From Pseudomaricurvus alkylphenolicus (lineage in GTDB: Bacteria > Pseudomonadota > Gammaproteobacteria > Pseudomonadales > Cellvibrionaceae): a stretch of DNA of 42,188 nt. A program made the translations under genes and the position numbers. Each line of letters starts with the position of its first letter. Positions within the stretch are counted from its first letter, which is position 1. Positions 5,286-32,857 of the stretch are shown here, in pieces. The notes beneath the pieces are model-generated. The model worked only from the letters and a program-made list of their open reading frames with translations, had not been told where the DNA came from and ran no database searches. Where the stretch lies: NCBI RefSeq assembly GCF_011683955.1, contig NZ_JAAQPI010000030.1:1-42188 (forward strand), written 5' to 3'.

Positions 5286-7316
5286 TTAGATGATTTCCAG
5301 CACCTGGCGTGCGGCGCGCTGACCTTCGCTGTGGGCGCCCAGGGTTCCCTGTAGACCGCGCAATTCGCCATTGGCAAAAAAGATGCGGTCGTAGCCCTGG
5401 CGCAAGGTATCGGAGTTGGAGGTTCCGCCACCGGCCGGGTGGAAAAAACCGGGACCGGGAACGGCAAACGCGTGCCCCCAGCGATTGAGGGTGATGCCGG
5501 CAATATCCCGGCTTGGATCAAAACCGGTGCGTCCAAACATCGCCACCATCTGGCGACGAATTTTCAATTCAATGTCCCGATAGGGTGTCGAAAAAAGTTC
5601 CCAGCGTTTACTGGAACCCTGTTGTTTGGCGCTTAAGGACGGTTCGATCAGCGGTGCGTAGAACGTCATGACAATGGGTTTGTCGGGGTCAAACGGCGGT
5701 CGATAACCACCGACATCCAGAGGCTGGCGAATATTGCACATAAAACCAAATTCACCGCCCTGATACATCACCGAGGTAACACCCAGCTTCTCCATAAAAC
5801 GCCAGTTGGTCAGTGCCACATTGGCCACCACTACCGGGCCGTATTCAAAGGAGTCCATAGCGCTACGGATATCGGCGGGTGCATCTCCCAGGATATTGCG
5901 ATTCACCCAACTGGCGCTGCCGAGGATAACCGACTTGGTGTAAGCCGCATAAAGCTGGCCGCCTTTTTCGTAGACTACGCGCACTTTTTTCTGAGCACTA
6001 CCGGGAACATGCCGAACATCCACGACAGTGGCGCCCAGGCGAATTCGAATGGGGTGCTTGTCGGTATCCAGCTGATCGAAGCGGATATCCCCATCCAACA
6101 CATCCCTTGGGGTTTTGGCACCCTTTAAACAGTCGGGCCAGATATATTTGAGAAAATAGCGATAGGGAAAGCTGTTGCCACCGGGGAAGCAGTGCACATT
6201 AAAACCTTTCCAGGTGTCTACCAGACCACGGTTCTTGGGGTCATTCATGATCGCCGTATGGGGATCGCCGACCAGGCGAGCACCGGGCATTTCCATATTG
6301 TAGGTGGCTGCCAGCGCCGAGCAGGTGGAGCTGCCCAGGCCAATACCGGTGGCCAGCATGGGGTCGGCAAAGCGAGCTACTTCCGGAGAAAGGCCATGCA
6401 CATCCACCAGCAGTTGTTCGTAACTCATGCTGTCGAGCCACTGGTCCAGCCCTTCCGCAGGGCGGTCCAGTGTCAAGCCCCACTGCCACTTCATCAGGTC
6501 CTGCTCAACCTCGGCGGAAAAGCCGAGTCCGCCAAAGCCATTAATCCAGGGGTTTTTAACCAGCTTGGGTTCGGGGTTGGCCTTGGTGGCTTTACCAAAA
6601 TAACCAATGCTGTCCGACACAGGCCCCAGCCACATATACATATAGTTGGAGACGTCCGCTTCCAGCGGTTTGTCAGTTCCGGTGAGAGCAACGGGATCAA
6701 AGTGGAGCGGCATACCGATATCGGTAAACTCCTCGTACAGCAGGTCCTCGCCCAGAGCCACCTGGCCGGGCTCGGTGGGCAGAATCACCAGGTTGGCACC
6801 CTGGGGGCCAAAAATGGTGTGGCCGTCCACTTCAAATTCATTCTGTCGCGCCTTGCCGCCAAGGACTTGATGATTCTCCAGAATCAGGCCTTTAAGGGAG
6901 TCACCCTTTTCTTTGATCAGGCGATAACTGGCGCCGATGGTCGAAGGCCCGCCGCCGATCATAATCACATCGTAATCGTCACCGCCGTCCAGGTATGCGG
7001 TGGAACTCAGATCACCATAGTGCCCATCGCGAATCAGGTGAGCCCGAGAGAGTACCTCCCAAGTGTTGCCGTTGGAATTGCGGTAATCCCCCACCCCACC
7101 CGGGCCGTTGAAGCGGGCGGCTTGGTGTTTGTCGATGGGAGGGACAGAAACATCAGGGCCGGATTTTTCAGCTGCCAGTAACTCTCTTGGGGAGAGGCCG
7201 CCCAGCAGCCCGGCACCACCAACGGCCAGCCCCCCGAGAAAATCCCGACGGGTGATTGATGAACTTGCTCCCAGCTCTGCAAGCTCTTTATCAACGGTAG
7301 AATTTTTCCAGCCCAT
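5286..7316 (-). CDS. Tat-exported FAD-dependent oxidoreductase, spermidine dehydrogenase-like
   Basis: 676-residue flavoprotein with a twin-arginine signal (ITRRDFLGG, R23-R24, followed by a Gly/Ala/Leu-rich stretch), so it is probably folded in the cytoplasm and exported to the periplasm. The FAD-binding Rossmann motif is DVIMIGGGPSTIGAS (about 116-130). The C-terminal HAFAVPGPGFFHPAG and FFANGELRG look like an amine-oxidase-type FAD-closing region. The N-terminal layout (DKEL, then RRDFLGG, then a ~90-residue spacer before the FAD motif) matches my memory of the proteobacterial spermidine dehydrogenase SpdH. An amine or polyamine substrate is therefore inferred, not shown. The start has AGGAG seven bases upstream. 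Its neighbours (gamma-glutamyl-amine ligase, PuuD-like hydrolase) fit amine catabolism. Confidence 0.75.
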   Translation of the reverse strand: MGWKNSTVDKELAELGASSSITRRDFLGGLAVGGAGLLGGLSPRELLAAEKSGPDVSVPPIDKHQAARFNGPGGVGDYRNSNGNTWEVLSRAHLIRDGHYGDLSSTAYLDGGDDYDVIMIGGGPSTIGASYRLIKEKGDSLKGLILENHQVLGGKARQNEFEVDGHTIFGPQGANLVILPTEPGQVALGEDLLYEEFTDIGMPLHFDPVALTGTDKPLEADVSNYMYMWLGPVSDSIGYFGKATKANPEPKLVKNPWINGFGGLGFSAEVEQDLMKWQWGLTLDRPAEGLDQWLDSMSYEQLLVDVHGLSPEVARFADPMLATGIGLGSSTCSALAATYNMEMPGARLVGDPHTAIMNDPKNRGLVDTWKGFNVHCFPGGNSFPYRYFLKYIWPDCLKGAKTPRDVLDGDIRFDQLDTDKHPIRIRLGATVVDVRHVPGSAQKKVRVVYEKGGQLYAAYTKSVILGSASWVNRNILGDAPADIRSAMDSFEYGPVVVANVALTNWRFMEKLGVTSVMYQGGEFGFMCNIRQPLDVGGYRPPFDPDKPIVMTFYAPLIEPSLSAKQQGSSKRWELFSTPYRDIELKIRRQMVAMFGRTGFDPSRDIAGITLNRWGHAFAVPGPGFFHPAGGGTSNSDTLRQGYDRIFFANGELRGLQGTLGAHSEGQRAARQVLEII

Positions 7317-7356: not shown

Positions 7357-7440
7357 AGTAATTCTACTTTTTCTCGATACAAATCGACCGCATACGTAGG
7401 GTGGGTTAGTTGACAACGCCGCGACAAAGTAGAACTAATT
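7357..7440. repeat. Inverted repeat in intergenic region
   Basis: TTCTACTTT (7362-7370) and AAAGTAGAA (7426-7434) form a perfect 9-bp inverted repeat flanking a segment with GTAGGGTGGGTTAG. It lies between the amidohydrolase stop and the FAD oxidoreductase start. It may be a small repeat element or part of a transcript-end structure; there is no T-tract. Confidence 0.4.
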
Positions 7441-8878
7441 AGTGACTGGCAGCTTGCATGGCCTTAAACATTTCAAGGTCTACTTTGTACTCTTCCTGAA
7501 TCGCCGCCAGTTCCGCGTTAATCTTGGCCTTGGGCCAATACTGTCCCCGCATCATCACGCCGCTGATTGCCTTGGCATTAGCGATGTCAGCCAACGGGTT
7601 TTTATCCAGCAATACCAGTTCGGCACTGGCGCCTTCTACAATGGTGCCAAACTCCCCTTCTTTATCGAAATAGCGGGCCGGTTCAACGGTGGCAGCCTTG
7701 AGAATTTGGTAGGGGGTCAAACCCGCTTCGGCAAACAGCGCCATCTCCTGGTGTACATTAAAACCGGATGCGGTGGTATCGGTACCAATCAGCAGTGGCA
7801 CACCAGCATCACTGAGGCCTTTTATCAGTGCCAGGCGAACTTCTCGGGAGCCCTTTAAACCATTTCTTGGGCGCGGGTGAAAAATCTCAAACATATACTC
7901 TGAGAACAGGGTCGCTTGAGCATTGCGATACTGAGCGGCGACATCTTGTTTGCTATAGCGTTCATACTCGGTCACCATTTCTTCCACCACGGTCAACGTG
8001 GGATCAACCCAGACCGGGTATTTTTGGGTAATTTCCGCCAGTTGTTGGATTTTTTGCGGCGTGCAGTAGGCCCAACCCTGATAGACATCATCCATGGTTG
8101 GCAGCAAACCCGCATCCGGCCCGGCGCAGGCCACATCATAACCTGAGAGGTGTTCAATAGAGCGCATGCCTTTCTTGATGGCGTACTCAAAATCGATCTG
8201 CATGGGCAAGTGACCCATCACAGGGATACCGACTTCTTTACCGGTATCCAAAATCGCATCAAAGGTCTCTTTATTCAAGGTCGAATAGATTTTTACCATA
8301 TCAAAACCCATGGCAGCGGTTTTGCGCACGAAATCCGCCGCCGTCTTGGGGTTGGAAAATGGCGTCGTCAACGAGTGCAACTGTGGGTCACCATCCATGG
8401 GTACATACGAGGTATAAAGTCTCGGCCCAGCCATTTCACCACGGTTAATCTTGTCACGGGTTTCCAGGTTCAGCTCACCGCCAGCCACATCGCGAAGGGT
8501 GGTTACACCGAACATCAGATACTGGCGCAATTGCTGGCTCTGTACACGCTTTGCCATAGCCACTTGCTCGGCAGTTGCACTCCCTTTCAAGGGAGCGAGT
8601 CCATCCACATGGACGTGCATATCACTGAGACCGGGAATCAGGAACTTTCCCGATCCATCAATTCGCTGCGCCTCACCATCCAGACACTGGCGTGCCTGCT
8701 TGCAGATTTTTGCAATCTTGCCGCCCTTAATCAGCACCGAGTGATTGGCCATCACCTGATCAGAGGTCATGGGGATCAGGTTGACGTTTTTGATCAGGTA
8801 ATCCTGAGCAAAAGAAAAATTGGAACCTAAAAATAGAACAGTAAAAGCGATTATTGAGTTAAATAAAGTTCTCATCAT
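7439..8878 (-). CDS. Exported metal-dependent amidohydrolase (paralogue 1)
   Basis: Amidohydrolase-superfamily enzyme of about 479 residues with an N-terminal signal peptide (MMRTLFNS... ending near FSFAQ), so it is periplasmic or outer-membrane associated. Metal and catalytic motifs occur in order: DMHVH (H88, H90), MVKIYST (candidate bridging Lys), VMGHLP, SIEHLSG, and LLIGTDT for the catalytic Asp. The set is typical of imidazolonepropionase-like and prolidase-like members that cleave amide or peptide bonds. The frame extends upstream to a TTG at 8902, but the ATG pair at 8878/8875, preceded by GAGAGAG, starts a sensible signal peptide and is preferred. It has a tandem paralogue at 9061-10488. 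Substrate unknown; an amide-linked compound is likely from context. Confidence 0.87.
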   Translation of the reverse strand: MMRTLFNSIIAFTVLFLGSNFSFAQDYLIKNVNLIPMTSDQVMANHSVLIKGGKIAKICKQARQCLDGEAQRIDGSGKFLIPGLSDMHVHVDGLAPLKGSATAEQVAMAKRVQSQQLRQYLMFGVTTLRDVAGGELNLETRDKINRGEMAGPRLYTSYVPMDGDPQLHSLTTPFSNPKTAADFVRKTAAMGFDMVKIYSTLNKETFDAILDTGKEVGIPVMGHLPMQIDFEYAIKKGMRSIEHLSGYDVACAGPDAGLLPTMDDVYQGWAYCTPQKIQQLAEITQKYPVWVDPTLTVVEEMVTEYERYSKQDVAAQYRNAQATLFSEYMFEIFHPRPRNGLKGSREVRLALIKGLSDAGVPLLIGTDTTASGFNVHQEMALFAEAGLTPYQILKAATVEPARYFDKEGEFGTIVEGASAELVLLDKNPLADIANAKAISGVMMRGQYWPKAKINAELAAIQEEYKVDLEMFKAMQAASH

Positions 8879-8938
8879 CTCTCTCAAAAAATTCCTAGCC
8901 AACTAAAAAGACAGCACCAACACACAATGCTTTAACTC

Positions 8939-9060: not shown

Positions 9061-10488
9061 TCAGTGACTCGCGGCCTGCATAGCCTTAACCATTTCAAAA
9101 TCCGCTTTGTATTCAGCTTGAATAGCAGCCAGTTCAGCATCAATCTTCGCTTTGGGCCACCACTGCCCCTGCATCATTACGCCGCGAATGGCCTTGGCAT
9201 TTTCAATATCGGACAACGGGTTTTTATCCAGCAGTACAATATCCGCATTTGCACCTTCAACGATGGTGCCAAATTCACCCTCTTTATCGAAGTAACGAGC
9301 TGGCTCAGATGTTGCGGCAACTAATGCTTGGTAAGGGGTAAGGCCGGCTTCTACTAATAATGCCAACTCCTGATGAACGTTGTAACCAGTTGCCATAGTG
9401 TCAGTACCAACAAGAAGAGGTACTCCGGCATCATTTAACGCTTTTACTATTGCCTTTCTCACAGGTTTTGACGCTTTCAGTCCTGCACGGGGACGCGGGT
9501 GAAAGATTTCAAAAAGCCACTCTTGAAATACTTGTAGCATCGGCGGTGTAAAACTGGCTTCTTCCTTGTTATACCTTGTATGCCGATCCCACTCAGTTTT
9601 TACGTTATCCTGTACGATCAATGTTGGATCCACCCAAACAGGATATTTTGCTGTCATTTCTGCAACAGACTTTACCTTTTCAGGAGTACAGTAATTTAAT
9701 CCTTGGTAGACATCATCCATAACAGGCTTAAGCCCTGCATCATAACCCGCACAAAACATGCCAAATCCTGACAAATGTTCAATAGAGCGCAGCCCTTTTT
9801 GCAAGACATACTCCATGTCTATCTGCATAGGTACATGACCAATCACAGGTGTATTCGACTCTTTAGCAGCATCTATAATTGCATCGAATACAGGCTTTGT
9901 TAATGTAGAATAGATCTTAATAAGATCATACCCTTCTGCTACGGACTGCCGGACATAATCAGCTGCAACTTTGGGATCATCAAACGGCAATGTAGCATTG
10001 TGCAACGTCGGATTTCCGTCCATTGCCCCCTTAGAAGTATAAATACGAGGGCCAGTAGCTTTGCCCTGCTCAATCTTTTTACGTGCTTCCAGATTAAGTT
10101 CGCCGCCACCCGTATCCCGGATTGTAGTCACACCAAACATGGCGTACTGTCTCAACTGTTGGCTCTGAATACGCTCAAACATCCCCCTCTGAACAGGATT
10201 CTTCTTCGCCAACTCAGGAATATGGCTAGTGTGGGCATGCATATCAGCCAAGCCAGGGATCAGGTATTTTCCCGATCCATCAATCCGCTGCGCCCCGCCA
10301 TCCAGGCACTGGCGTGCCTGCTTGCAGATTTTTGCAATCTTGCCACTCTTAACCAGCACTGAATGGTTTTTCTTCACAACCTCCTCTGTCATCGGAACCA
10401 GGTTGACGTTCTCGATTACATAATCATTTGCCATCGCCCCACTCATGGAAAGCAAAGAAGCAATGACTAACAAGTAACGAATTGGCAT
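9061..10488 (-). CDS. Exported metal-dependent amidohydrolase (paralogue 2)
   Basis: About 475 residues from the ATG at 10488 (MPIRYLLV), which has CAGGAGATAAAC in front of it. The longer open frame to 10551 reads through this ribosome site and is rejected. A signal peptide ends around SGAMAND. The motifs parallel the neighbouring paralogue: DMHAH (H84, H86), LIKIYST, VIGHVP, SIEHLSG and LLVGTDT. The two proteins are alike along their full length, so this is a tandem duplication followed by divergence. The DNA of this copy looks less GC-rich in its middle, while short blocks near the 5' end are almost identical to paralogue 1. It lies directly downstream of the TonB-dependent receptor, so it probably acts on the imported compound in the periplasm. 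Confidence 0.87.
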   Translation of the reverse strand: MPIRYLLVIASLLSMSGAMANDYVIENVNLVPMTEEVVKKNHSVLVKSGKIAKICKQARQCLDGGAQRIDGSGKYLIPGLADMHAHTSHIPELAKKNPVQRGMFERIQSQQLRQYAMFGVTTIRDTGGGELNLEARKKIEQGKATGPRIYTSKGAMDGNPTLHNATLPFDDPKVAADYVRQSVAEGYDLIKIYSTLTKPVFDAIIDAAKESNTPVIGHVPMQIDMEYVLQKGLRSIEHLSGFGMFCAGYDAGLKPVMDDVYQGLNYCTPEKVKSVAEMTAKYPVWVDPTLIVQDNVKTEWDRHTRYNKEEASFTPPMLQVFQEWLFEIFHPRPRAGLKASKPVRKAIVKALNDAGVPLLVGTDTMATGYNVHQELALLVEAGLTPYQALVAATSEPARYFDKEGEFGTIVEGANADIVLLDKNPLSDIENAKAIRGVMMQGQWWPKAKIDAELAAIQAEYKADFEMVKAMQAASH

Positions 10489-10509
10489 GTTTATCTCCTG
10501 TGTTATCCC

Positions 10510-10535
10510 ATTGGCGGTGATACAACACCGCCAAT
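10510..10535. terminator. Strong hairpin just upstream of amidohydrolase paralogue 2
   Basis: ATTGGCGGTG and CACCGCCAAT form a perfect 10-bp stem with a 6-base loop. It sits about 20 bases before the start codon, between the TonB-dependent receptor and the amidohydrolase. No T-run follows on the minus strand, so it may be a processing or attenuation structure that lowers read-through rather than a full terminator. Confidence 0.5.
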
Positions 10536-10561
10536 ATCTACTGCTGTACACTAATTATAGA

Positions 10562-10603: not shown

Positions 10604-12811
10604 TTAAAAGTTCATTTTCACATTGACACCCAGGGTTCTTGGCTGCGGCCGGCTGTTCAAGGTGAAGCCCAATGACGCGGCTTCAATACCGGCTGGATAC
10701 ATCGCATCGGACTCATCGGTCAGGTTCCGGCCAAACAGGTAGATGCCATAATTCTCCCTCTCCATACCAATGCGCGCATTCACAAAGGTATTTTTTCCTG
10801 CCGTGAAGTCACTGGTCGGCTCTTCCCTTTCGCTGTTGTATTGCACCTCTAACATGGCAAAACCCTGTGCTTCCAGGCTGGTTAACTCGAACTCATAATT
10901 GGCCGATGCGGAAAAGGTAAACTTGGGCACGTTGACAATACGATCGCCATCGCTCACATCGGCGGGCGCCACAATGCCATTAACATCCAGGAAGCTGGCA
11001 TCACTGGTGTATTCCGAAACATTGACATTACCGGTGGTGGACAGCGTCAGGCCTTCCAGCGCAGTGGCGTAACTGAACGCCCAATCCAGGCCATACGCCT
11101 GGGCCGTGGGGCCGTTAAATACAAACCCGATTCCCACACCGGGGGCTGCGCCAAATATCTGAATATCTTCCCAGTCGTTATAATAAAGCGCAGTGTCATA
11201 ACTCAAACGACCATCCAATAGCGTACCCTTGGCACCCACTTCATAACTCCAGACACTTTCCTCTGCCACTTCCTCCTGGGGAGTGAAACCACCCAGGGCG
11301 ATATTCATGGCCATAACACCACCCGGTTGAACCAGCCCACTGCGGAAGCCCCGTGCCGCGTTGAAAAACAGCAGGGAATCGTCACTGGGGCGCCAGGAAA
11401 TATTGAGTTTCGGCTGTACGGTATCAAAGGTGGCATCGCGTTTCACCGCCACCCCCACGGCTTCCATTCCGGGAAATACCAACCCCGGCGCAATAGGGAA
11501 ACCGGTGACCGCCAGGGAGCTTGGCAATTCTGTATCCGTGCGCTTATCCTCGAAATAGCGCAGACCCAAGGTCAGGTCCACAGAGTTATCAAAAAAGCTC
11601 CAGGTGCCCTCACCAAACACGGCCCAGGACTTGGATTCAACCAATTCGTCCACTGCACCGGGAAAACCGGGGGCCAGGGTAAACAAAAAGGTGGTCTCAT
11701 TGTCATTGTAGAGGCCACCCAGGGTCCAACTGAAATCCGAGTCAGACTTTGAAACCAGGCGAATTTCCTGAGACAGGTTTTCAATAGTGCGATTGTCATA
11801 ACCCACACCCACGGACAAACCCGAGGCGTCAAAAATCGCCTCTTCAAATTCAAGGTAGGAGGTGGCGCTGTATATACGGAAGGCGTCAAACTCGTACTCC
11901 ACCGCCATATTGTAAACATCGTAATCAAAAGCGGAGTATTCGCTGTCGATGCCAGTAACCGGCGCAAGCGCTGTCGTGGGTGCGCCCATAGGACGGTCCA
12001 GGTTTTCGTCGGCAATATTAAAACCGTCCGCTTCCAGATCCTGGAACCAGGCGCCCAGACGAATTTCCAGGTTATCATTGGGGGTGTAGGTCAACTTCGC
12101 CCGGAAGTTTTCCAGGGTAGTGTCGTTGACATTCTTTTTGCCCACCGAGGAGTCATCAATATAACCGCCAGTCTCATTGACTCCGGCAACCAATCGCAAG
12201 CCGAGTACATCTTCCACCAGCAGCAGGTTGATAGCGCCGTTAATGGAGTAGGACGCCTCCCCATTGTGGATGGAGGCGCCGGTCACATCCAGCTTGCCTT
12301 CAAACTCAGTGGTACTGGCATCCTGGGTTTTGACAATCACTGTACCACCCTGGGAACTGGCACCGTACAGGGTGCCCTGGGGACCGCGCAGGACTTCGAC
12401 ACCCGCCAAATCAAAGCTGGGAATAGAAGGAAACTCCAGGTTCACCGCCGTGGCAAAAGGTACATCGTCGAGATAAAGCCCGACCGTGGGGTCACCCACC
12501 AACGCTGAGATACCTCGTATTTGAATCACCTGGTTGCCAGGGTTAACGGAGGTCAGTGTCAGGCCCGGGGTTTTGTTGATAAAGTCTTCCAGGTTTGCAG
12601 CTCCCTGTCGTTCCAGGTCATCGCCGGAAAATGCGGTAATCGGCAAGGCCACATCCATCAGGTTCTGCTCACCACGCTTGGAAGCCGTGACGGTGATTTC
12701 CTCCAGAAAGAATTCATCTGCTTTGTTATCAGTTGATTCCTCGGCAACTACAACTGGCGACATAGCCATTGAAACTGCCATCGACAATAGTGTTTTATTG
12801 ATTTTCATCAT
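10604..12811 (-). CDS. TonB-dependent outer-membrane receptor 1
   Basis: 735-residue outer-membrane transporter. The signal peptide covers roughly residues 1-23 (ending near SPVVVAEE). LEEITVTASKRG is the TonB-box-like segment leading into the plug. The plug shows PGLTLTSV, QIRGIS and GLYLDDVPF, then EVLRGPQGTLYGASSQGG, a hallmark of the family. The 22-strand barrel ends in the obligatory terminal Phe (VNVKMNF). It starts at a double ATG after GAGGAGATAT. The type is common in marine and sphingomonad-like degraders of organic compounds rather than a classical siderophore receptor, but the substrate is not determined. It lies between the P450/ferredoxin genes and the exported amidohydrolases, so it is the likely uptake port for the compound this island degrades. 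Confidence 0.93.
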   Translation of the reverse strand: MMKINKTLLSMAVSMAMSPVVVAEESTDNKADEFFLEEITVTASKRGEQNLMDVALPITAFSGDDLERQGAANLEDFINKTPGLTLTSVNPGNQVIQIRGISALVGDPTVGLYLDDVPFATAVNLEFPSIPSFDLAGVEVLRGPQGTLYGASSQGGTVIVKTQDASTTEFEGKLDVTGASIHNGEASYSINGAINLLLVEDVLGLRLVAGVNETGGYIDDSSVGKKNVNDTTLENFRAKLTYTPNDNLEIRLGAWFQDLEADGFNIADENLDRPMGAPTTALAPVTGIDSEYSAFDYDVYNMAVEYEFDAFRIYSATSYLEFEEAIFDASGLSVGVGYDNRTIENLSQEIRLVSKSDSDFSWTLGGLYNDNETTFLFTLAPGFPGAVDELVESKSWAVFGEGTWSFFDNSVDLTLGLRYFEDKRTDTELPSSLAVTGFPIAPGLVFPGMEAVGVAVKRDATFDTVQPKLNISWRPSDDSLLFFNAARGFRSGLVQPGGVMAMNIALGGFTPQEEVAEESVWSYEVGAKGTLLDGRLSYDTALYYNDWEDIQIFGAAPGVGIGFVFNGPTAQAYGLDWAFSYATALEGLTLSTTGNVNVSEYTSDASFLDVNGIVAPADVSDGDRIVNVPKFTFSASANYEFELTSLEAQGFAMLEVQYNSEREEPTSDFTAGKNTFVNARIGMERENYGIYLFGRNLTDESDAMYPAGIEAASLGFTLNSRPQPRTLGVNVKMNF

Positions 12812-12927: not shown

Positions 12928-13125
12928 TTACTCCTGCAACAAAAGCGCCCTTTCGGGGCAACTTCGACAAGCCCGTTGTGCCAACGATTTTTGCGCTTCG
13001 CTAATATCACTGACAATGACCGTTGGTTTGTCTTCTCCTTCCTTAAAGTCAAAAAACTCCGGGGCCACCATGACGCAACGCCCGTGCCCCTGACAGATAT
13101 CCCAATCGACTGTTAGCTTCATCAC
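12928..13125 (-). CDS. Small [3Fe-4S]-type ferredoxin, P450 partner
   Basis: 65-residue ferredoxin. Cluster residues are C11-x2-H14-x2-C17 (CQGHGRC) and C53-x2-C56-P. The His in place of the second Cys of a CxxCxxC motif is the usual signature of P450-associated single-cluster ferredoxins, most of which carry [3Fe-4S]. It follows the P450 gene by only 9 bp, so translational coupling and a role as its electron donor are likely. C53 is an additional Cys, so a [4Fe-4S] form cannot be excluded. No ferredoxin reductase gene is in the window. Confidence 0.88.
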   Translation of the reverse strand: MMKLTVDWDICQGHGRCVMVAPEFFDFKEGEDKPTVIVSDISEAQKSLAQRACRSCPERALLLQE

Positions 13126-13134
13126 TATGGCTCC

Positions 13135-14328
13135 TTACGCTGTCGCTGTAGATTCAGCCGTGGCTGACAAGGCAATGGGCAGCGGACCCATGGTGTTCCA
13201 ATCGACGTCCCCGACCACCTGGTAGTCCGGGAAGAGCTGGAGAAATTCCTCCACGGCAACCTTGATTTCCAGACGCGCCAGGTGTGAACCGAGACAACGG
13301 TGAGCACCCATGCCAAAGGCCATATGGCGGTTGGGTGTACGCCCCAATACAAATTTGTCAGGCTCCGGGAATTCCTCTTCATCGCGATCGGCCGAGGCAA
13401 ACAGCATCATCACCTTGTCACCGGCCGCAATGGCTTGACCATTGATTTCCGTGTCTTTGGTGGCCGTGCGAGCAATACCCCACACCGGTGAATAGAGGCG
13501 CAGCACCTCTTCAATGGCATCGGAGATTTTGTCAGGGTCGGCAATCAGCTCCTGGCGCAACTCCTCACTGTTGCTGATTTGCAACAACAGGTTGCGAATG
13601 GTGAAAGCGGTATTATCGAGACCGGCGATCAACAGGAACCAACAAAAGTCCATAATGTCCTGATCACTCAGCGGCTGGCCATTGACTTCGGCTTTCAGTA
13701 GGGTACTGATAAAATCATCGCCCAGGTTTTCACGGCGCTGCGGAATCAACTCGTTAAAGAAAGCGACAATATTGTCTGACGCCTGGCGAGCTGAATTGTG
13801 GTCTTTGCGCTCGTAAACAATTTCTTCCGTCCACTCCTGCAGTTCCTGCAGCTGTGCTTCGTCGCCCTCAATGTCCAGCAGTTGGCATATGACGGTGGTG
13901 GGCAGCAGTTTGGCGTACTCTTCCGAGATATCCACTTCGTCCTTATCGGCAATTTTTGCCAACAATTTTTGGGCAGAAACTCGCAGCATTTCTTCCCGTG
14001 CCATCACCGCGCGCGGCGTCAATTCATGGGCCAATATCTGGCGCAGACCAAAATGCTCCGGGGCATCGGCCTCCATGGGCAGCGCACGGCCGTCATATTC
14101 CATGGGCGGAATGGCGATGCCCTGACCGGAACAAAAGGTTTCGGCATCACGGGCCACTTCAAATACATCTTCGTAGCGTGATACCGCCCAAAAACCATCG
14201 TGTGCCTCTACACGGCCCACCGGGCACTGCTGGCGAAATTCTTTATAGGTCGGAAACGGGTCCTTGCGAAACTCCGGGTCGTATGGTTGCCAGCCGTGGG
14301 TTATTGGGCATTTTTTCTTTTCACTCAT
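13135..14328 (-). CDS. Cytochrome P450, class I bacterial type
   Basis: 397-residue soluble monooxygenase. Heme-binding motif FGMGAHRCLG with thiolate C345; K-helix E274-x-x-R277 (EEVLR); I-helix AGLDNT (236-240). Alignment by eye to P450cam places N239 at the conserved alcohol position T252, next to acid D238, as in the cineole hydroxylase P450cin. That substitution changes the proton-delivery arrangement and is uncommon. No signal peptide or membrane anchor. It is transcribed with the small ferredoxin gene (9 bp gap) and lies downstream of the M29-type peptidase gene (57 bp gap). With the divergent glutamine-synthetase-like and [2Fe-2S] ferredoxin genes it probably hydroxylates an amine or its gamma-glutamyl derivative; that is inference. 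CYP family not assigned. Confidence 0.93.
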   Translation of the reverse strand: MSEKKKCPITHGWQPYDPEFRKDPFPTYKEFRQQCPVGRVEAHDGFWAVSRYEDVFEVARDAETFCSGQGIAIPPMEYDGRALPMEADAPEHFGLRQILAHELTPRAVMAREEMLRVSAQKLLAKIADKDEVDISEEYAKLLPTTVICQLLDIEGDEAQLQELQEWTEEIVYERKDHNSARQASDNIVAFFNELIPQRRENLGDDFISTLLKAEVNGQPLSDQDIMDFCWFLLIAGLDNTAFTIRNLLLQISNSEELRQELIADPDKISDAIEEVLRLYSPVWGIARTATKDTEINGQAIAAGDKVMMLFASADRDEEEFPEPDKFVLGRTPNRHMAFGMGAHRCLGSHLARLEIKVAVEEFLQLFPDYQVVGDVDWNTMGPLPIALSATAESTATA

Positions 14329-14385
14329 TGCAAATACCTTTTGGTTATATCTTTTTTAACAGAGAGCACTGAATAGCAACGCGAG

Positions 14386-15486
14386 TCACACCAGATATTC
14401 GCCGTTTTCCAGCACTTTGATACGCTCGCCGCTCTCGGTGATCAGTTCCGCAGAGGCGGTAATTTGGCAAGCTTTGGCATAGGGGTTGTCGTAGTGGAGC
14501 ACCGTGGTTTCATCGATAAATTGATCCACCCCCACGGTGCCACCGAGAAAATCGCTGCGTCCAAAACCCCAGTGGAAACCGGCTTTTTCATCTTCGATAT
14601 AGAGACCGGACACCCGCGCATCGGGATTACAGCCAAAAGCAATTTCTCCCACATTGCGGCGCATGGGGTCTAACTCAAACAGTGACTCATAGAAATCGCG
14701 GGCCGTGCCCTCTCCCCCCACCGCCACAATGCGGTTGGCTTCGATAGTCAACAAGGCCACGGAACCATCTTCTGCCGCGACCGGTATGGTGCCTCGGGTT
14801 TTGGAAACATCCCCCTCAATCTCTCCTTCGTAGGGGGTAATCCATACTTCTCCGCTGGGCATATTGATCAGGGCCACGCCTTCTTTGTCGCGGTGCAGGT
14901 AACCGTTATCAACACCACATTGACGGTGACGCAGGTCAAAGAAACAAGAATGCCCGGTAGAAAAAGTCACTTCGGCGGCAATGGCTTGATCGAAGGCCTG
15001 CTTTAATTTCTGGCAGCGTTGCTGCAGCAGGGCATAATCGATGTCGTAACAGGCGTTCTGCATCTCGACACAGGCCAGCGGCATACTGGCAGCGCGAAAG
15101 TTCTCCGCGCCCGGACGGCGCATGGCCGCCTGCACCAGACCGGCGGTCATGGAGATCTCCGTCATGGCGATGGCCAGGCTCACCTGATCGAGCTGCTCGT
15201 CAATAGTGACAATGTCGTCCCCCAAGCGCCCCTCTTTGGGAAAGGGAGCGTGGTGATCGGCAACCGCCGGGAACCTTAGCAGCGGCAGCACCTCAAACCC
15301 GCGCTCTTTACCCAGGGCGGCAAACTGGCTGTGCCACTGCTGCGCCATCTCAAAGCGCTGCTGCCAGGCCTTATTGGCAGGTACGGTGGCGGTAGGCTCA
15401 TCCACCAGAATCAGCACCCGCTCCCCGGTTTCGGGGGCAAATACTTGATCGGCAAATCTTCTAAACTCAAACGAACGGTGGGTCAT
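14386..15486 (-). CDS. M29-family-like aminopeptidase (aminopeptidase T / NicX-like fold)
   Basis: 366-residue protein. INMPSGEVWITPYEGEIEG and NVGEIAFGCNPDA, followed by FHWGFGRSDFLGG, are the pattern of the M29 thermophilic-aminopeptidase superfamily; their Glu and His residues are the expected metal ligands. The same fold includes NicX-type 2,5-dihydroxypyridine dioxygenases, so a ring-opening or deaminating role cannot be ruled out. No signal peptide. It is the first gene of the leftward operon, with its start 169 bp from the divergent glutamine-synthetase-like gene and the 58-bp element between them. AAGG in the leader serves as a weak ribosome site. Family placement is moderate; substrate unknown. 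Confidence 0.7.
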   Translation of the reverse strand: MTHRSFEFRRFADQVFAPETGERVLILVDEPTATVPANKAWQQRFEMAQQWHSQFAALGKERGFEVLPLLRFPAVADHHAPFPKEGRLGDDIVTIDEQLDQVSLAIAMTEISMTAGLVQAAMRRPGAENFRAASMPLACVEMQNACYDIDYALLQQRCQKLKQAFDQAIAAEVTFSTGHSCFFDLRHRQCGVDNGYLHRDKEGVALINMPSGEVWITPYEGEIEGDVSKTRGTIPVAAEDGSVALLTIEANRIVAVGGEGTARDFYESLFELDPMRRNVGEIAFGCNPDARVSGLYIEDEKAGFHWGFGRSDFLGGTVGVDQFIDETTVLHYDNPYAKACQITASAELITESGERIKVLENGEYLV

Positions 15487-15525
15487 CTGTCACTGCCTTA
15501 GGCTGTTGGATTTTGTGATGAATCC

Positions 15526-15583
15526 ATCCTATGGCAAAGCTCTGCGGGCAATTGTACAAATTTGGTCACAATTGGGTATAAGC
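15526..15583. promoter_or_regulatory. 58-bp element, copy 2, in the divergent promoter region
   Basis: This copy lies in the 169-bp gap between the divergent M29-peptidase and glutamine-synthetase-like genes. About 30 inner bases are identical to copy 1 at 1955-2012, including TGTACAAATTTGGTCA with the dyad TG-NN-CAAATTTG-NN-CA. TATAAGC at its right edge could belong to a -10 region for the plus-strand operon, but spacing to a good -35 is not ideal. The central position suggests that one regulator controls both directions. Confidence 0.6.
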
Positions 15584-15593
15584 CCGGGTCCAG

Positions 15594-15613
15594 GCCTCCC
15601 CAACAGGGGGGGC
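15594..15613 (+). promoter_or_regulatory. GC-rich leader hairpin before the glutamine-synthetase-like gene
   Basis: GCCTCCCC and GGGGGGGC pair over 8 bp (one U-G wobble) with an AACA loop, ending 42 bases before the ATG. Seven consecutive G bases are unusual for a leader. It could act in attenuation or translation control, or it may be incidental. Confidence 0.4.
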
Positions 15614-15655
15614 AGGCGTGTAACCTGAGCCCACGAATGACACGGGAAGCGAGCG

Positions 15656-17056
15656 ATGAAGCAAAACAGCAATGAATTAACGAAGCTGATTGAGGAACAC
15701 AACCTGGACACCGTCTCGGTAGTGGCCTCGGACTTGCACGGGATAGCACGAGGCAAGAAAGTACCGGCCAAGCGACTGTTGCAGAGCAGCAGCTCGCCCA
15801 TGCGCATGTCTAACCTGATGGCGATGCTGGACTACGCCGGCGTTCCCTTCCCTCCTCCTGAGGGGGACGAGCGCTGGTGGCCTTCCTGGAGCGAGGGTTA
15901 CACCGATACCCGTGCCGTTATCGACCCCAACAGCGCCCGCCTGGTGCCCTGGCAACCCGGCACCGGCCTGGTGGTCTGTGACTTTGAGCATGTGGATGGT
16001 CGCGGCGAGCTGAATTATATGCCCCGCGCCACCCTGAAGCGGCTGACCCAACGCCTGGCCGATAGGGGTTACGACACCAAGGCGGCCATCGAAATGGAAT
16101 TTATGCTGTTTGATGAAACCGACCGCAGCGCGGCGGAAAAACACTATAAAGACCTGACTCCGCTCTGGCCTACGCCCCAGGCCTACTGTTTAACCACCCT
16201 GGGCCGCCACGATGAGGTCATTACCGGCATTCGCGACCAGCTGGCCGGCTTCGGCCTGCCCATCGAGACCTGGAATGTCGAAGCCGGTCCCGGGCAGGTG
16301 GAGATGAACCTCCCCCCCAGCGAAGCACTGGCCTCGGCCGATCAGGGGTTTCTGTTCAAACACGCCCTGAAAGAAGTGGCCGCCCAAAAGGGCCTTTACG
16401 CCTCGTTTATTTCCAAACTCTCCAGCGCCGGTTTTGGCAACGGCACCCACCTTAACTTCTCTTTGTGGAAAGATGGCCAGAACGCCTTTCATAGTGGCGA
16501 TGCTGAAAACCCACAATCGGAAACCCTAAAGTATTTCACTGGCGGTCTGGTGAAAACATTGCGGGAGTTTACCCTGATGTATGCCCCCACCGTGAATGCC
16601 TACCGTCGCTTTGTGCCCTACTACTCCACCGGCATGATGGTTTCCTGGGGCTACGACAACAAGTCCAATACCGTGCGCACGGTAACTGAAAGCCCATCCC
16701 TGTGCCGGGTAGAGCAGCGCACCGCCGGCGGCGACGTCAACCCCTATCTGTTGATGGCGGCGTGTATTGCCGCAGGCCTGTACGGCATAGACAACCAGAT
16801 CGAACCGCCGGCACCCACCCTGGGGGATGCCTATGCCGACCCGAACCTGCAGACCGTACCCACCACACTTGAAGAGGCTATCGAGCTCTTCGAGCAGAGT
16901 GAAGTGACCAACCAATACCTGGGCGAAGATTTCGTCCGTTTTTACGCCCACAGCCGCCGACAGGAAGCGCTGGCCTTTGCCGACGCCACCCAAGGCATGC
17001 CAGACACCAGCGAAGTGACTGACTGGGAACTGGCCCGTTACCTGGAGATTGTATGA
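15656..17056 (+). CDS. Glutamine-synthetase-like gamma-glutamyl-amine (polyamine) ligase
   Basis: 466-residue GS-fold ATP-dependent ligase, likely joining glutamate to an amine (PuuA / GlnA3 / PauA type), not housekeeping GlnA. Metal and nucleotide residues are recognisable: E146 and E148 (IEMEFML), E209 and E216 (VEAGPGQVEMN), H265 (GNGTHLNFSLW), R317-R318 (NAYRRF) and E353/R355 (VEQRTAG). SASDLHG-like and RGKKVP near the N-terminus match amine-ligase members. It overlaps the next gene, a PuuD-like hydrolase, by 4 bp. Related GS homologues act in putrescine, isopropylamine, aniline and cyclic-amine catabolism. The divergent P450 and two flanking ferredoxins make an oxidative amine pathway the best guess. 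The substrate amine is not known. The 58-bp element and a leader hairpin lie upstream. Confidence 0.88.
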   Translation: MKQNSNELTKLIEEHNLDTVSVVASDLHGIARGKKVPAKRLLQSSSSPMRMSNLMAMLDYAGVPFPPPEGDERWWPSWSEGYTDTRAVIDPNSARLVPWQPGTGLVVCDFEHVDGRGELNYMPRATLKRLTQRLADRGYDTKAAIEMEFMLFDETDRSAAEKHYKDLTPLWPTPQAYCLTTLGRHDEVITGIRDQLAGFGLPIETWNVEAGPGQVEMNLPPSEALASADQGFLFKHALKEVAAQKGLYASFISKLSSAGFGNGTHLNFSLWKDGQNAFHSGDAENPQSETLKYFTGGLVKTLREFTLMYAPTVNAYRRFVPYYSTGMMVSWGYDNKSNTVRTVTESPSLCRVEQRTAGGDVNPYLLMAACIAAGLYGIDNQIEPPAPTLGDAYADPNLQTVPTTLEEAIELFEQSEVTNQYLGEDFVRFYAHSRRQEALAFADATQGMPDTSEVTDWELARYLEIV

Positions 17057-17811
17057 CCCGCGACAAGACACACCCGAAACCCATCATCGGCATTATCGCC
17101 TGGCGCCAGAACATCGAGGTCTGGAGCAGTCAAATGGACCTCTACATACTGGATGCACCCTACGTTAACCGGGTCCAGGCCGCTGGCGGCATGCCGGTGC
17201 TGATTCCCCATGTGGAGCCCGCCGACGCTGAAGCGCAGATAGCAGTCGTAGACGCACTGTTGATTACCGGCGGCGACGACCTGGACCCCAGCTCCTACGG
17301 TGCGACGGACGAAGGCCATTGCCTGGGCACCAATATTGCCGCCGATCGCAGTGAAATCGCGCTGGTGCAAGCGGCCGCCAAGCGGGGCATTCCGGTGCTG
17401 GGCACCTGCCGTGGCATTCAAATTATCAATGCCGCCTTCGGCGGTAACCTGCACCAGGAAATGCTTGGCGAGGGCGGTATCTGCCACGGCCCCAGGCCCG
17501 AAGTGTTGGATGAGATACTGGCCATTCGCCACGACCTGGAAATCGCCCCCGACTCCCTGCTGGCCCGCGCGCTAGGTACCGAGCGGCGCCAGATTAACAG
17601 CACCCACCACCAGGCCGTTAAGGAGGTTGCCCCCGGATTTCGCGCTGTCGGCTGGGCACCGGACGGTACGGTGGAGGCCATTGAATCCACCCAACACGAC
17701 CACATTCTGGGGGTACAGTGGCACCCGGAAAAATTGCCGGCCCCGGACAATCAAGAGCTGTTTGAACAATTGATTGGCGCCGCCATTGAGCGCAAAACCG
17801 CGTTTAATTGA
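17053..17811 (+). CDS. Class I glutamine-amidotransferase-type gamma-glutamyl hydrolase (PuuD-like, C26)
   Basis: 252-residue peptidase C26 / class I GATase domain protein. The catalytic triad is C119 in LGTCRGIQ, with H224 and E226 in VQWHPE. ITGGDDLDPSSYG and STHHQAVK are characteristic of gamma-glutamyl-GABA hydrolases. It should release glutamate from a gamma-glutamylated product after oxidation. The ATG overlaps the stop of the ligase gene (ATGA), implying translational coupling. This ligase-hydrolase pair is the core of the Puu pathway and of the aniline AtdA1/AtdA2 pair, so the substrate class (amine) is well supported while the exact compound is not. Confidence 0.9.
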   Translation: MTRDKTHPKPIIGIIAWRQNIEVWSSQMDLYILDAPYVNRVQAAGGMPVLIPHVEPADAEAQIAVVDALLITGGDDLDPSSYGATDEGHCLGTNIAADRSEIALVQAAAKRGIPVLGTCRGIQIINAAFGGNLHQEMLGEGGICHGPRPEVLDEILAIRHDLEIAPDSLLARALGTERRQINSTHHQAVKEVAPGFRAVGWAPDGTVEAIESTQHDHILGVQWHPEKLPAPDNQELFEQLIGAAIERKTAFN

Positions 17812-17847
17812 TTCCCCACTTCAACAAGGTTTATGCAGGAAAAGGTT

Positions 17848-18519
17848 ATGCCTATGATTCAACTCACTGCCGCTGACGGTTTCACTCTGGATGCCTATCA
17901 GGTTTTACCGCAAGGCACACCTAAAGGCGCCGTGGTTGTGATTCAGGAAATTTTTGGTGTTAACGGTCATATCCGCCAGGTAACCGACAGCTATGCCGCC
18001 GCCGGTTACGTGGCCATTGCCCCGGCACTGTTTGATCGCCAGGAAAAAGACGTACAGCTCGGTTATGATCAGGAAGCGCACTGGAACAAAGGCATGCAGT
18101 TGGCTTTTGAAGGTTATGATCGCGACGCGGGCATGAAAGATATTCAGGCCGCCGTGGATGCCGTCGCCCAGTACGGCAAGGTGGCTATTGTTGGCTACTG
18201 TTTCGGCGGCCTGCTGGCCTGGCTGGCGGCCAACCAGGTAACGGGGTTGAGCGCCGTGTCTTCCTACTACGGCGGATTTATTGGCCAGGAAGCCCATCGC
18301 AAACCGCAATGCCCGGTGATCCTGCACTTCGGCAAAAAAGACCTGCATATACCTGAAAGTGAAATCAATATGGTGCGCGAAGCCAATCCAGAGGTCACTA
18401 TCCATATGTACGATGCCGACCACGGCTTCAACTGTGACCACCGTGAAAGCTATCACGCGGAAAGCTCCGCCCTGGCCAAAGAACACACCTTGGCTTTTTT
18501 TAACGCACAGCTCAGCTAA
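17848..18519 (+). CDS. Dienelactone hydrolase family protein
   Basis: Alpha/beta hydrolase of about 223 residues, dienelactone-hydrolase type. The triad is complete: C118 in GYCFGG, D165 in KKDLHIP and H192 in DADHGF. The regulatory Glu is in IQEIFG (E34). The open frame begins at 17833, but AGGA at 17837 is seven bases before the ATG at 17848 (MPMIQL), so that start is preferred. It is cytoplasmic and follows the gamma-glutamyl hydrolase gene by about 36 bp. A lactone or enol-lactone formed after oxidation of the substrate is a possible target; many DLH proteins instead hydrolyse other esters, so function is open. Confidence 0.87.
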   Translation: MPMIQLTAADGFTLDAYQVLPQGTPKGAVVVIQEIFGVNGHIRQVTDSYAAAGYVAIAPALFDRQEKDVQLGYDQEAHWNKGMQLAFEGYDRDAGMKDIQAAVDAVAQYGKVAIVGYCFGGLLAWLAANQVTGLSAVSSYYGGFIGQEAHRKPQCPVILHFGKKDLHIPESEINMVREANPEVTIHMYDADHGFNCDHRESYHAESSALAKEHTLAFFNAQLS

Positions 18520-18545
18520 ACCGATTCAAAGAGATACCGATTACT

Positions 18546-18866
18546 ATGCCACTGATTACCTATATCGAAGCCGATGGCACCGAACACAAAGTAGACGTTG
18601 CCACCGACACCACCCTGATGCAGGGTGCGGTTAACCATATGATTGACGCCATCGCCGCCGAGTGCGGCGGTGCCGGCACCTGCGCCACCTGTCACTGTTA
18701 TGTGGATGAAAACTGGCGCGAAAAAATCACCGCCCCCAGTGATATGGAGGCACAAATGCTGGAACTGGTGATGGAGCCCAGGGACAACAGTCGCCTGAGC
18801 TGCCAGATTAAGGTCGACGCGGATATGGAGGGCATGGTGGTGCGTTTGCCGGAGGCGCAGTACTAA
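18546..18866 (+). CDS. [2Fe-2S] ferredoxin, putidaredoxin/adrenodoxin type
   Basis: 106-residue ferredoxin with C40-x5-C46-x2-C49 (CGGAGTCATC) and C86 (LSCQI), the spacing of vertebrate-type [2Fe-2S] ferredoxins that feed class I P450s. PRDNSRLSCQI is the conserved C-terminal block. It is the last gene of the plus-strand operon, 26 bp behind the dienelactone hydrolase gene. Together with the [3Fe-4S] ferredoxin across the divergent promoter it gives the single P450 two candidate electron donors. No reductase is nearby. Downstream lies a carboxylase pseudogene on the opposite strand. Confidence 0.92.
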   Translation: MPLITYIEADGTEHKVDVATDTTLMQGAVNHMIDAIAAECGGAGTCATCHCYVDENWREKITAPSDMEAQMLELVMEPRDNSRLSCQIKVDADMEGMVVRLPEAQY

Positions 18867-18889
18867 GCCTCGACTGCCGTGAACCCAGG

Positions 18890-19645
18890 CTGATATTTCT
18901 TCTCTGTGAGTTTGACCGTATGACTAAACAATAAGGGTTTCGCATAAAGATAGTGACAATCGGTGCTTTCATCTTGGCACCGGCTGTAAACATTGCCGCC
19001 ATTTTCCTGGCAGCCCCCTGAGCTTCGCTTTCCGGGCCAACCATAAACCCTGGGGTATCACACAAAGACACCAAAGGCAGGTTAAAGCTGCTACACAGAT
19101 TTATAAAGTTGGCGGCTTTTTCCGCAGCCTCGGCATCAATAGCTCCACCCAAAACCTTACAATCATTACAGATAACACCAAACGGTTTACCTTCGAGGCG
19201 CATAAAACCGGTAATAATGCCCCCACATAAGCCTGCCCCGATTCAGTAAACGACTGCGTATCTGCCAAAGTGGTAATGATCTTTCGAACATCGTAAGTAT
19301 ACCGGCGGTCTTCCGGCATCAGGCTCCAGATTGGTGATTGTTCCGCACAATGCCACTGCTTCAGTGTTCCTTGAAAATAAGACAACAGATCTTTGACCAA
19401 ACGGGTAGCATGAGCTTCGTCATCGGCAACAATATCCAGCGTTTGGCGGATGCGTTGGCGAAAATCATTCAGGGTGCCATAATGAGCAGAGTTTGTATTA
19501 TCTATATCCAGCTCAGCAATCGACTCACTACTCGATTCAGTTTTAGACTTCGCAATCAGATCCATAATCACGGCGCCTTTTTGCAGCGTCTGGCCTTCAC
19601 TGGTGAACATCTGTCCCACCAGGCCGGATATCGGCGCCTTAAGAT
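18890..19645 (-). pseudogene. Broken acyl-CoA carboxylase remnant (biotinyl segment plus carboxyltransferase)
   Basis: Reading leftward on the minus strand there is a biotinyl-domain-like segment (LKAPISGLVGQMF...LQKGAVIMDLIA), then a carboxyltransferase N-terminal part (DFRQRIRQTL...TYDVRKIITTLAD). After a one-base frameshift near 19205 the characteristic GFMRLEGKPFGVI, LGGAIDAEAA and LVSLCDTPGFMVGPE follow. The biotin-attachment AMKM motif is absent and the frame fails after PIVTIFMR, about 150 residues short of a normal end. Both ends are missing: the 5' side runs into the 3' end of the DsbB-like gene and the 3' side into the ferredoxin gene's end. It is therefore a decayed, deletion-flanked gene, not an active enzyme. 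Boundaries are approximate. Confidence 0.8.
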
Positions 19646-20049
19646 GTCTCAAGGCTCTTCGTGTATTTTCTTTCAACGCCATCCACCAAGATTAACCACA
19701 ACTGAGCAACGATAATAAACAACGCTGCACCTGAAAGAATAAAGGGATCAACAAATATATCTTCATGGAAAGCAAACTCACCACTGGATATTTTTTTCCA
19801 GTGCATAAAGTTCTGATTTACCGCGACAATTATCCCCATCAAGCCGACCACTGAAGCCAGATACTTGAACACCCACTGTCTCGCCACTGGAAATAAGAGA
19901 AACAGCCCCAGCAATGCGATAACCGTTCTCTGCACCCGGCAGTAGGGACAGACATACACCAGACCAGAAAGCTCAAGGGCCCATGCTCCAATGCCGATAA
20001 ACACAGTAACAATACCAAGAATACGCTGATGCTTCTTAAGAAATTCCAA
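19639..20049 (-). CDS. DsbB-like membrane protein with a single CxxC pair
   Basis: 136-residue membrane protein with about four hydrophobic segments. CPYCRVQR (C34, C37, Q40, R41) follows the first segment, matching the CxxCxxQR pattern of DsbB disulfide oxidoreductases. The second periplasmic Cys pair of DsbB is missing: the later loop (NFMHWKKISSGEF) has no Cys. The frame opens at TTG (20049), yet the only good ribosome site, GAGGAGG (20072-20078), is over 20 bases upstream and no in-frame ATG lies between, so the true start may be a rare codon or the gene may have decayed. Its 3' end abuts the carboxylase remnant. Function uncertain. Confidence 0.6.
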   Translation of the reverse strand: MEFLKKHQRILGIVTVFIGIGAWALELSGLVYVCPYCRVQRTVIALLGLFLLFPVARQWVFKYLASVVGLMGIIVAVNQNFMHWKKISSGEFAFHEDIFVDPFILSGAALFIIVAQLWLILVDGVERKYTKSLETS

Positions 20050-20919: not shown

Positions 20920-21117
20920 AATACTCCTTAGATCCCGACCACCTCAACACTATTCCGATGCCTATTCTCCGTAGCCGTTTCGAATCAGACGGCCAAGACC
21001 TATAACCACCTGCATCCATTCCGGTTTCTGGAAGATCCGAGCACGCTTCTGGGATCTTAGTCTTGCACCTTCCTGTTTTAGCATTATCAATGCACATATT
21101 TTTAGGCATCTTTATGG

Positions 21118-22293: not shown

Positions 22294-22350
22294 CAAAAAT
22301 TGCCCTGCTATTTACAAATGTCGTCACTCCAGCGAGAAATGTTTGACCAC

Positions 22351-24575: not shown

Positions 24576-24633
24576 ATCTCTCTACACATGTTTAACGTAT
24601 TTATCGGATAAGTGATTGGGTCCGTGCACACCA

Positions 24634-27066: not shown

Positions 27067-27077
27067 TCCAAGCTCCC

Positions 27078-29936: not shown

Positions 29937-29954
29937 ACTACATTCTCTTGAATA

Positions 29955-31529: not shown

Positions 31530-31533
31530 ATCG

Positions 31534-32787: not shown

Positions 32788-32835
32788 AAAACTATTTACC
32801 TCGAAGATCGGTGAGTACCGATATTTTGCGCAAGG

Positions 32836-32857
32836 CGGGCCCCTCGTTTAGGGCCCG
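32836..32857. terminator. GC-rich hairpin between the receptor and the thiolase operon
   Basis: CGGGCCC and GGGCCCG form a 7-bp perfect stem with an 8-base loop, about 40 bases beyond the receptor stop codon on the minus strand. No T-run follows. It probably marks partial termination or an mRNA boundary between the receptor gene and the catabolic operon. Confidence 0.5.

Follow-up and report, generated by a model that had tools for sequence, protein, structure and literature searches.

A ligase, P450 and M29-like gene island of Pseudomaricurvus alkylphenolicus as a probable variant of Ipu-type amine catabolism

Glutamate-capped amine oxidation by a cytochrome P450 has been described for an atrazine-degrading bacterium growing on the side chains of the herbicide (PMC6776027). 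In this Ipu route, IpuC first attaches glutamate to isopropylamine; the resulting gamma-glutamyl amide is oxidised by a P450 system of several components, and release of the product has been postulated to be the task of an amidotransferase (PMC6776027). Glutamine-synthetase (GS)-like enzymes named glutamyl-organic-amine synthetases (GoaS) have lost the ammonia reaction (PMC11335346). Here, a 42,188-nucleotide stretch of Pseudomaricurvus alkylphenolicus DNA (NZ_JAAQPI010000030.1; the window), which is the entire contig C22 of the 8.9-Mb genome, was analysed for an island at positions 12928-18866 encoding a predicted GoaS-type ligase, a P450, an M29-peptidase-like protein and a predicted PuuD-like (C26) hydrolase (Table 1). 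An earlier note on this DNA had proposed amine oxidation through a gamma-glutamyl intermediate by a gene set without a described counterpart.

Other described systems share parts of this set. The aniline/chloroaniline route (AtdA1-AtdA2, DcaQ/TdnQ; pTB30) likewise combines a GS-like ligase with a glutamine-amidotransferase (GAT)-like hydrolase (PMC11335346), but employs a ring-hydroxylating dioxygenase instead of a P450; its ligase is distant and sits on a long branch. The PuuA/PuuD pair of E. coli corresponds to the window in consisting of a gamma-glutamyl amine ligase and a C26 hydrolase, whereas the Puu pathway has no P450, uses the oxidase PuuB and the aldehyde dehydrogenase PuuC, and has its ligase on another branch. 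The mycobacterial piperidine/morpholine and Gulosibacter azepane loci (PipA, MorA) contain a P450 with a ferredoxin, as does the window, and in Gulosibacter a glutamine synthetase is numbered beside two of the four P450 genes discussed (PMC9477822). In contrast to the route proposed below, the P450 of these loci is taken to use the ring amine in its free form, and the glutamine synthetase is assigned to nitrogen assimilation (PMC9477822); the term 'amidotransferase' is absent from the main text of that article.

A cluster of ligase, P450, small ferredoxin and amidotransferase or C26 genes, as present in the window, was found in the Ipu-type loci of Paenarthrobacter aurescens TC1 (pTC1, pTC2), Microbacterium sp. 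YJN-G, Aminobacter SR38 (pSR5) and Agrobacterium leguminum AT13 (p2). Identity to the window proteins is 32-41% for ligase, P450 and small ferredoxin, and also for C26 in pTC1, pTC2 and YJN-G; with these three counterparts, the values are 34-37% for the P450, 34-37% for C26 and 35-41% for the small ferredoxin, while the amidotransferases of pSR5 and AT13 are 25-29% alike over 41-50% of the window C26 protein. The Ipu-type clusters carry reductase and permease or dehydrogenase genes, whereas the M29-like, SpdH-like, TonB receptor and amidohydrolase genes of the window do not appear in their gene listings. On the alphaproteobacterial plasmids pSR5 and AT13 p2, a second, different ferredoxin accompanies the same core, as in the window, with a 4Fe-4S-type cysteine pattern in place of the [2Fe-2S] type. 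The absence of a described pathway, assumed earlier, does not hold for the core: ligase, P450, ferredoxin and hydrolase make up the Ipu pathway, in which the ligase, the P450 system and a postulated amidotransferase follow one another in this order (PMC6776027). The core logic is already known from Ipu, and we regard the island as a variant with unusual added enzymes.

To what extent ligase and P450 relatives co-occur was evident from the plasmid matches, which were listed for the best 20 of 180 records (ligase) and the best 30 of 294 records (P450). Among the best 10 of the 180 ligase matches, eight, namely the two ipuC copies of P. aurescens TC1, YJN-G and five further records, sit with a P450 and an amidotransferase gene. 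The best nine of the 294 P450 matches are located in ligase-P450-amidotransferase clusters throughout (9/9); seven records are common to both sets, with less than 1.6 kb between the two matches, and in the other two P450 records the genes lie side by side. For nine lower-ranked P450 plasmid records, no GS-like gene was seen within the 4-6 kb shown on each side, for which the gene table is incomplete.

Ligase relatives were sought with six ligase peptides in the genomes of 84,980 species, and 33 were confirmed, one of which (L032) is 70% identical and the others at most 37% by best segment. L032 belongs to Gammaproteobacteria bacterium isolate SB0661_bin_54, presumably of sponge origin, and its 3-kb contig carries the ligase gene, the divergent M29-like gene and the start of a P450 gene. 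A search with the M29-like protein in 195 genomes, comprising the genome that holds L032 (G510) and its relatives, yielded four matches of 64-66% identity and a weak one of 29%. Among 244 genomes around G573, the ligase was found at E ≤1e-100 in G510, G513, G517 and G573 and in no other. In these four genomes, as in the window, the ligase, M29-like, P450 and C26 genes adjoin, with G510 being represented by two contigs, each with part of the P450 gene. Identity to the window proteins in the four genomes is 69-71% for the ligase, 64-66% for the M29-like protein and 55-56% for C26; for the P450 it is 70-71% in G513, G517 and G573 and 70-74% for the two G510 pieces. The SpdH-like gene is present in four genomes including the window and adjoins the ligase gene in G513, G517 and G573 (61-62% identity; 39-40% to the host paralogues); the G510 contig ends at that point, and G510 was not searched for this gene. 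Given the linkage in other genomes, chance is very unlikely to account for the grouping of the ligase, M29-like, P450, C26 and SpdH-like genes. The expectation that the two arms of the island are linked elsewhere was borne out in 4/4 genomes with ligase and M29-like genes.

The clustering of ligase, P450 and amidotransferase genes on plasmids, together with the described Ipu steps and the linkage in five genomes, favours the reading that the window encodes a catabolic island for an organic amine working like the Ipu pathway by a gamma-glutamylation/P450 route; on the basis of gene content and comparison we consider this probable. A peptide- or amide-like amine compound would be brought into the periplasm by the TonB receptor and trimmed there by the exported amidohydrolase and the SpdH-like oxidase. 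The cytoplasmic ligase would then join the amine to glutamate at the expense of ATP, the P450, fed by a small ferredoxin, would hydroxylate the protected amine, and the C26 enzyme would finally remove the glutamate. Of the earlier proposal, amine oxidation via a gamma-glutamyl intermediate stands as the best reading, but the exact gene set named for it is not the conserved one. The same logic as in Ipu, shared by bacteria of very different GC content and combined with extra exported enzymes and a conserved metalloprotein, suggests a natural substrate, for the finding of which the conserved island genes make up a short, testable list.

Several findings weigh against the Ipu-like reading. Identity to the Ipu clusters is only about 35%, a sister-group relationship between island and Ipu clade is resolved in neither the ligase nor the P450 tree, the plasmid ligase relatives H9 and H17 have no P450 nearby, and the GS-linked P450 of YJN-G is not in the best 30 of 294 P450 rows. 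Besides L032, 32 ligase relatives were inspected with 4 to 21 kb of DNA around the loci, and only L062 has a window-like P450 and C26 gene nearby; most such ligases therefore serve elsewhere, and, considering also H9 and H17, the pairing of GS-like and P450 genes is not general. Furthermore, the scan of window proteins revealed no ferredoxin reductase, no linked ferredoxin was found in the other four island genomes, and the C26 gene of those genomes is convergent with the P450 gene and outside any operon with the ligase. The C26 enzyme could also be a level-keeping hydrolase as described for aniline (PMC11335346). In L062 (9003-12766), which stems from an uncultured actinobacterium metagenome-assembled genome, P450 (23%), GS-like (28%) and C26 (40%) genes lie within 4 kb, and this cluster is perhaps another independent case of the grouping.

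The Gln-synt_C domain of the ligase scored 299.9 bits. Assignment as GlnA was rejected (217.7 bits at an NCBIfam cut-off of 429, and a position outside the GlnA branch of the tree), as were PuuA (222.7 bits at a cut-off of 650, and a separate tree branch) and GS-III (score below the NCBIfam cut-off). The tree was calculated with IQ-TREE from 66 sequences, including 25 of the 33 ligase relatives under their locus numbers; L032 was entered by name as an orthologue, and L053, L056, L057, L059, L060, L061 and L063 were omitted as partial or distant. Among the loci from the ligase search around the host, L031 was omitted because it is the same gene as L006, while L007 and L008 represent the window. 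One clade (100/100) unites the five island ligases, on the same side as PuuA, IpuC and the pTB30 ligase, and a 100/98 branch lies between them and the GlnA proteins of E. coli and of the host (L001). Like the island P450s, they lie in a clade of their own outside the Ipu clades, with an Ipu or GS-linked row being nearest by path; for the ligase this is IpuC of pTC1, at 3.45 changes/column versus about 0.55 within the clade. By tree and cut-off, the island ligase is not a GlnA, in agreement with what had been anticipated; it is predicted to be of the GoaS type.

The residue comparison follows the numbering and residue roles of GS (metal-binding, flap Glu327, ammonium site). The metal-binding residues E129, E131, E212, E220, H269 and E357 are retained in the window protein and its four orthologues. 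In all five (5/5), the Glu327 position is occupied by Ser, Asn264 by Phe and Arg339 by Lys; at the Glu327 position, IpuC has Trp and PuuA has Tyr. The Asp50 column, which aligns poorly, does not contain Asp (Pro or Ser by alignment).

The ligase and C26 genes might, alternatively, constitute an ordinary polyamine detoxification or utilisation module of the Puu/GlnA3 type, to which the P450 is linked by accident while serving another reaction. The match of the SpdH-like oxidase to spermidine dehydrogenase and the 31% identity between C26 and PuuD are consistent with this explanation. In the ligase tree, however, PuuA falls together with the host paralogues L005 and L003 rather than the island ligases (PuuA and L005 being flagged as long branches), the P450 is linked in 5/5 genomes, and no PuuC/PuuE-type aldehyde dehydrogenase or aminotransferase was found among the window proteins scanned. 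We judge such a module to be unlikely.

The P450 tree comprised 29 rows, including 11 of the 13 further P450 matches of the host, together with nine plasmid P450s (of 294 records) without a listed GS neighbour; the G510 sequence was omitted, being split over two contigs. All five GS-linked P450s fall into a single clade (100/100). By path, the island P450s have those of SR38 and AT13 as their nearest outside rows, but the tree does not resolve this join. The DLH protein and both ferredoxins had no match in the island regions of the four other genomes, where genome-wide matches to the small ferredoxin were obtained only in G517 and G573, at 30-36% and away from the island. The presence of two ferredoxins was consequently dropped as a defining feature, and the inclusion of the ferredoxins and the DLH protein in the set, as put forward earlier, was not upheld; their position in the window may be due to chance.

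The M29-like gene was absent from the earlier note and is the divergent partner of the ligase gene, with the pair being kept in all five genomes. Its 366-residue product scored 29.9 bits against Pfam PF02073 (cut-off 27), with only part of the domain covered. A profile search of the PDB gave NicX as first match (1.5e-16), followed by PepS (2e-7), AmpS (4e-6) and AmpT; with the single sequence, nothing relevant was retrieved from the PDB (best 0.68), neither NicX nor PepS/AmpS being found. The profile was composed of three island proteins and three distant archaeal or unnamed relatives, which possibly pulled it toward NicX. E213 and E281 of the M29-like protein align with PepS and AmpS, and H305 with AmpS; NicX differs at all three positions. 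The metal ligands of M29 aminopeptidases are E, E, H and H-x-D, and those of NicX include His265 and H-x-D. The NicX-dioxygenase ligand set was rejected for the window protein, as Glu281 occupies the position of His265 in NicX. At the H-x-D column, F-[IL]-[DN] is found, and an invariant H331-x-D333 (5/5) follows eight residues on, its placement being uncertain. The peptidase-type Glu, Glu and His favour a hydrolase, and the most likely role of the M29-like protein in the same route is hydrolysis of an amide or peptide bond. An AlphaFold model built from two sequences reached a mean predicted local distance difference test score of 44, and in a scan of viral contigs for M29-like relatives, none of 55 pattern matches was confirmed. 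On a haloarchaeal plasmid (L087, 620-2244), a gene for an M29-like 'aminopeptidase' adjoins DUF1177, AroM and Asp/Glu racemase-family genes, a neighbourhood that suggests a catabolic role for some M29-like proteins.

A more far-reaching proposal is that the M29-like protein represents a new kind of enzyme in a gamma-glutamylation route, either a metallohydrolase with the oxidised gamma-glutamyl amide as its substrate or an oxygenase related to NicX that opens this amide, and that it forms, with the TonB receptor, the exported amidohydrolase and the SpdH-like oxidase, a hitherto undescribed route from the cell surface to the cytoplasm for a natural product that is a peptide-like amine. This is conceivable, if rather doubtful.

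Concerning the source compound, genes around the island may point in two directions. Near the island, G573 has S15 X-Pro dipeptidyl-peptidase-like and prolyl-oligopeptidase-like genes, G510 has an S15 gene, and the window contains peptidase-family genes (M17, M14, S9), which suggests a peptide- or amide-like compound. Beside the C26 gene, G513 has genes for an HpaB-like protein, a BphC-like extradiol dioxygenase and an FAH-hydrolase, and G517 has genes for proteins of the same beginnings plus an HpaE-like dehydrogenase, all below the NCBIfam cut-offs; this module suggests an aromatic compound. It would fit aromatic-amine degradation, in which the P450 hydroxylates the ring of a gamma-glutamyl derivative and ring cleavage comes next, and so would the PDB match of the M29-like profile to the ring-cleaving NicX. 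G513 and G517 are, as seen in the ligase tree, near-identical, so that the aromatic module counts as one observation; G573 and the window are without it beside the island (the G510 contigs are short), and the M29-like protein has retained residues of the peptidase type that are missing from NicX. Aromatic-amine degradation is, in our estimation, quite improbable.

The SpdH-like protein matched solved SpdH at 1.1e-40 and had a twin-arginine-translocation (Tat) signal of 23.9 bits (cut-off 16.7); no Pfam family was assigned at 0.001. Both window amidohydrolases show a relationship to an Xaa-Pro dipeptidase model without reaching its cut-off, and are 56% (copy a) and 62% (copy b) identical to the single copy in G573. 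The TonB receptor has a relative of 60% identity over 741 residues in G573, beside the amidohydrolase and SpdH-like genes, and best matches of at most 39% in G510, G513 and G517. Attribution of these exported functions to the island was confirmed for the SpdH-like oxidase in three other genomes and for receptor and amidohydrolase in G573 only, where the latter two adjoin the island. This distribution touches on a further explanation, namely that the island makes or modifies a gamma-glutamyl-amine metabolite. GS-like ligases and P450s also occur in biosynthesis, and the argument from uptake is weakened by the linkage of receptor and amidohydrolase in only one other genome. The TonB receptor, the amidohydrolase with its apparent signal peptide and the Tat-signal oxidase nevertheless speak for uptake and degradation, and the catabolic Ipu clusters are among the close relatives on plasmids. 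A biosynthetic function is very improbable.

In searches around the host, the ligase and M29-like genes were, at the thresholds given here, confined to the host itself. Of 145 genomes searched (host included), only that of the host gave a ligase match exceeding 35% identity at ≤1e-60, and at 1e-80 the ligase was found in the host only among 369 genomes of its class. Likewise, when 97 relatives (1e-10) and 398 genomes of the phylum (1e-40) were searched with the M29-like protein, the host alone gave a match, and five genus mates (G001-G005) gave no match to either protein. We infer from this scattered occurrence that the gene set has probably been passed on as a block by horizontal spread. The GC content is 0.517 for the window, 0.51-0.556 for six other host loci and 0.66-0.69 for the island regions of the other genomes; there is no GC sign of recent arrival in the host. 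The host genome encodes seven Gln-synt_C proteins, 14 P450 matches and four SpdH-like matches, those of the window being counted, and exceeds in size, at 8.9 Mb, the five genus mates searched (4.0-5.7 Mb).

Positions 12928-18866 contain seven intact genes, not six, with three on the minus and four on the plus strand. All genes named in the earlier note were found as intact open reading frames (ORFs) at their positions, with the families being confirmed in profile searches, and the arms diverge as described; the divergent pair is, however, M29-like/ligase and not P450/ligase, the M29-like gene having been overlooked. The start of the C26 ORF overlaps the ligase stop by four bases. The motifs FGMGAHRCLG and AGLDNT of the P450, GTCRG and WHPE of C26, CQGHGRC...CP of the small ferredoxin and C-x5-C-x2-C...C of the Fer2 protein are intact. 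Between 12750 and 19000, four sigma-70-like sites were counted versus 3.8 expected by chance, so that a divergent promoter, of which a single one had been proposed, is not demonstrated. Terminator-like sites numbered 11 in the same range versus 6.8 expected; one weak site lies between the M29-like and P450 genes, and an operon is therefore not established there.

Table 1. Features of the island and of the adjoining exported-protein genes in the window.
Feature	Position	Strand	Remarks
Tat-signal SpdH-like flavin amine oxidase/dehydrogenase	5286..7316	-	SpdH match 1.1e-40
Amidohydrolase copy a, Xaa-Pro dipeptidase-like	7439..8902	-	signal peptide judged by eye
Amidohydrolase copy b, Xaa-Pro dipeptidase-like	9061..10551	-	signal peptide judged by eye
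TonB-dependent receptor	10604..12811	-	family match; 60% relative in G573
Small P450-type ferredoxin	12928..13125	-	Fer4_15, Fer4_13; CxxHxxC...CP; [3Fe-4S] or single-cluster type
Cytochrome P450	13135..14328	-	intact heme motif
M29-peptidase-like metalloprotein, 366 aa	14386..15486	-	PF02073
Divergent intergenic region, 169 bp, between M29-like and ligase ORFs	15487..15655		pair kept in 5/5 genomes
GS-like gamma-glutamyl-amine ligase, GoaS type (predicted)	15656..17056	+	Gln-synt_C
PuuD-like (C26) gamma-glutamyl hydrolase (predicted)	17053..17811	+	Peptidase_C26
Dienelactone-hydrolase-family (DLH) protein	17833..18519	+	DLH; motif GYCFGG
[2Fe-2S] ferredoxin	18546..18866	+	Fer2; C-x5-C-x2-C...C

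Abutting the 3' end of the [2Fe-2S] ferredoxin gene, two overlapping ORFs on the minus strand (18808-19682) match successive parts of a Carboxyl_trans domain, and this acyl-CoA carboxylase-type gene looks broken. A second degradation-like block follows on the minus strand (20158-35112), encoding enoyl-CoA hydratase, acyl-CoA dehydrogenase, BAAT-like and glyoxalase-like proteins, an S9 peptidase, an M14 carboxypeptidase, an AMP-ligase, a thiolase and a second TonB receptor. Its matches in the other island regions are weak (S9 peptidase 28% and receptor 33% in G573; enoyl-CoA hydratase 33% in G513/G517). Transposase genes of the IS3 and IS256 families are located at the right contig end (38170-41251). 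At 842-1717 (minus strand), a metallo-beta-lactamase-fold protein is encoded that comes near the second part of the fused sulfur transferase/dioxygenase Blh, scoring 370.5 bits at a cut-off of 625.

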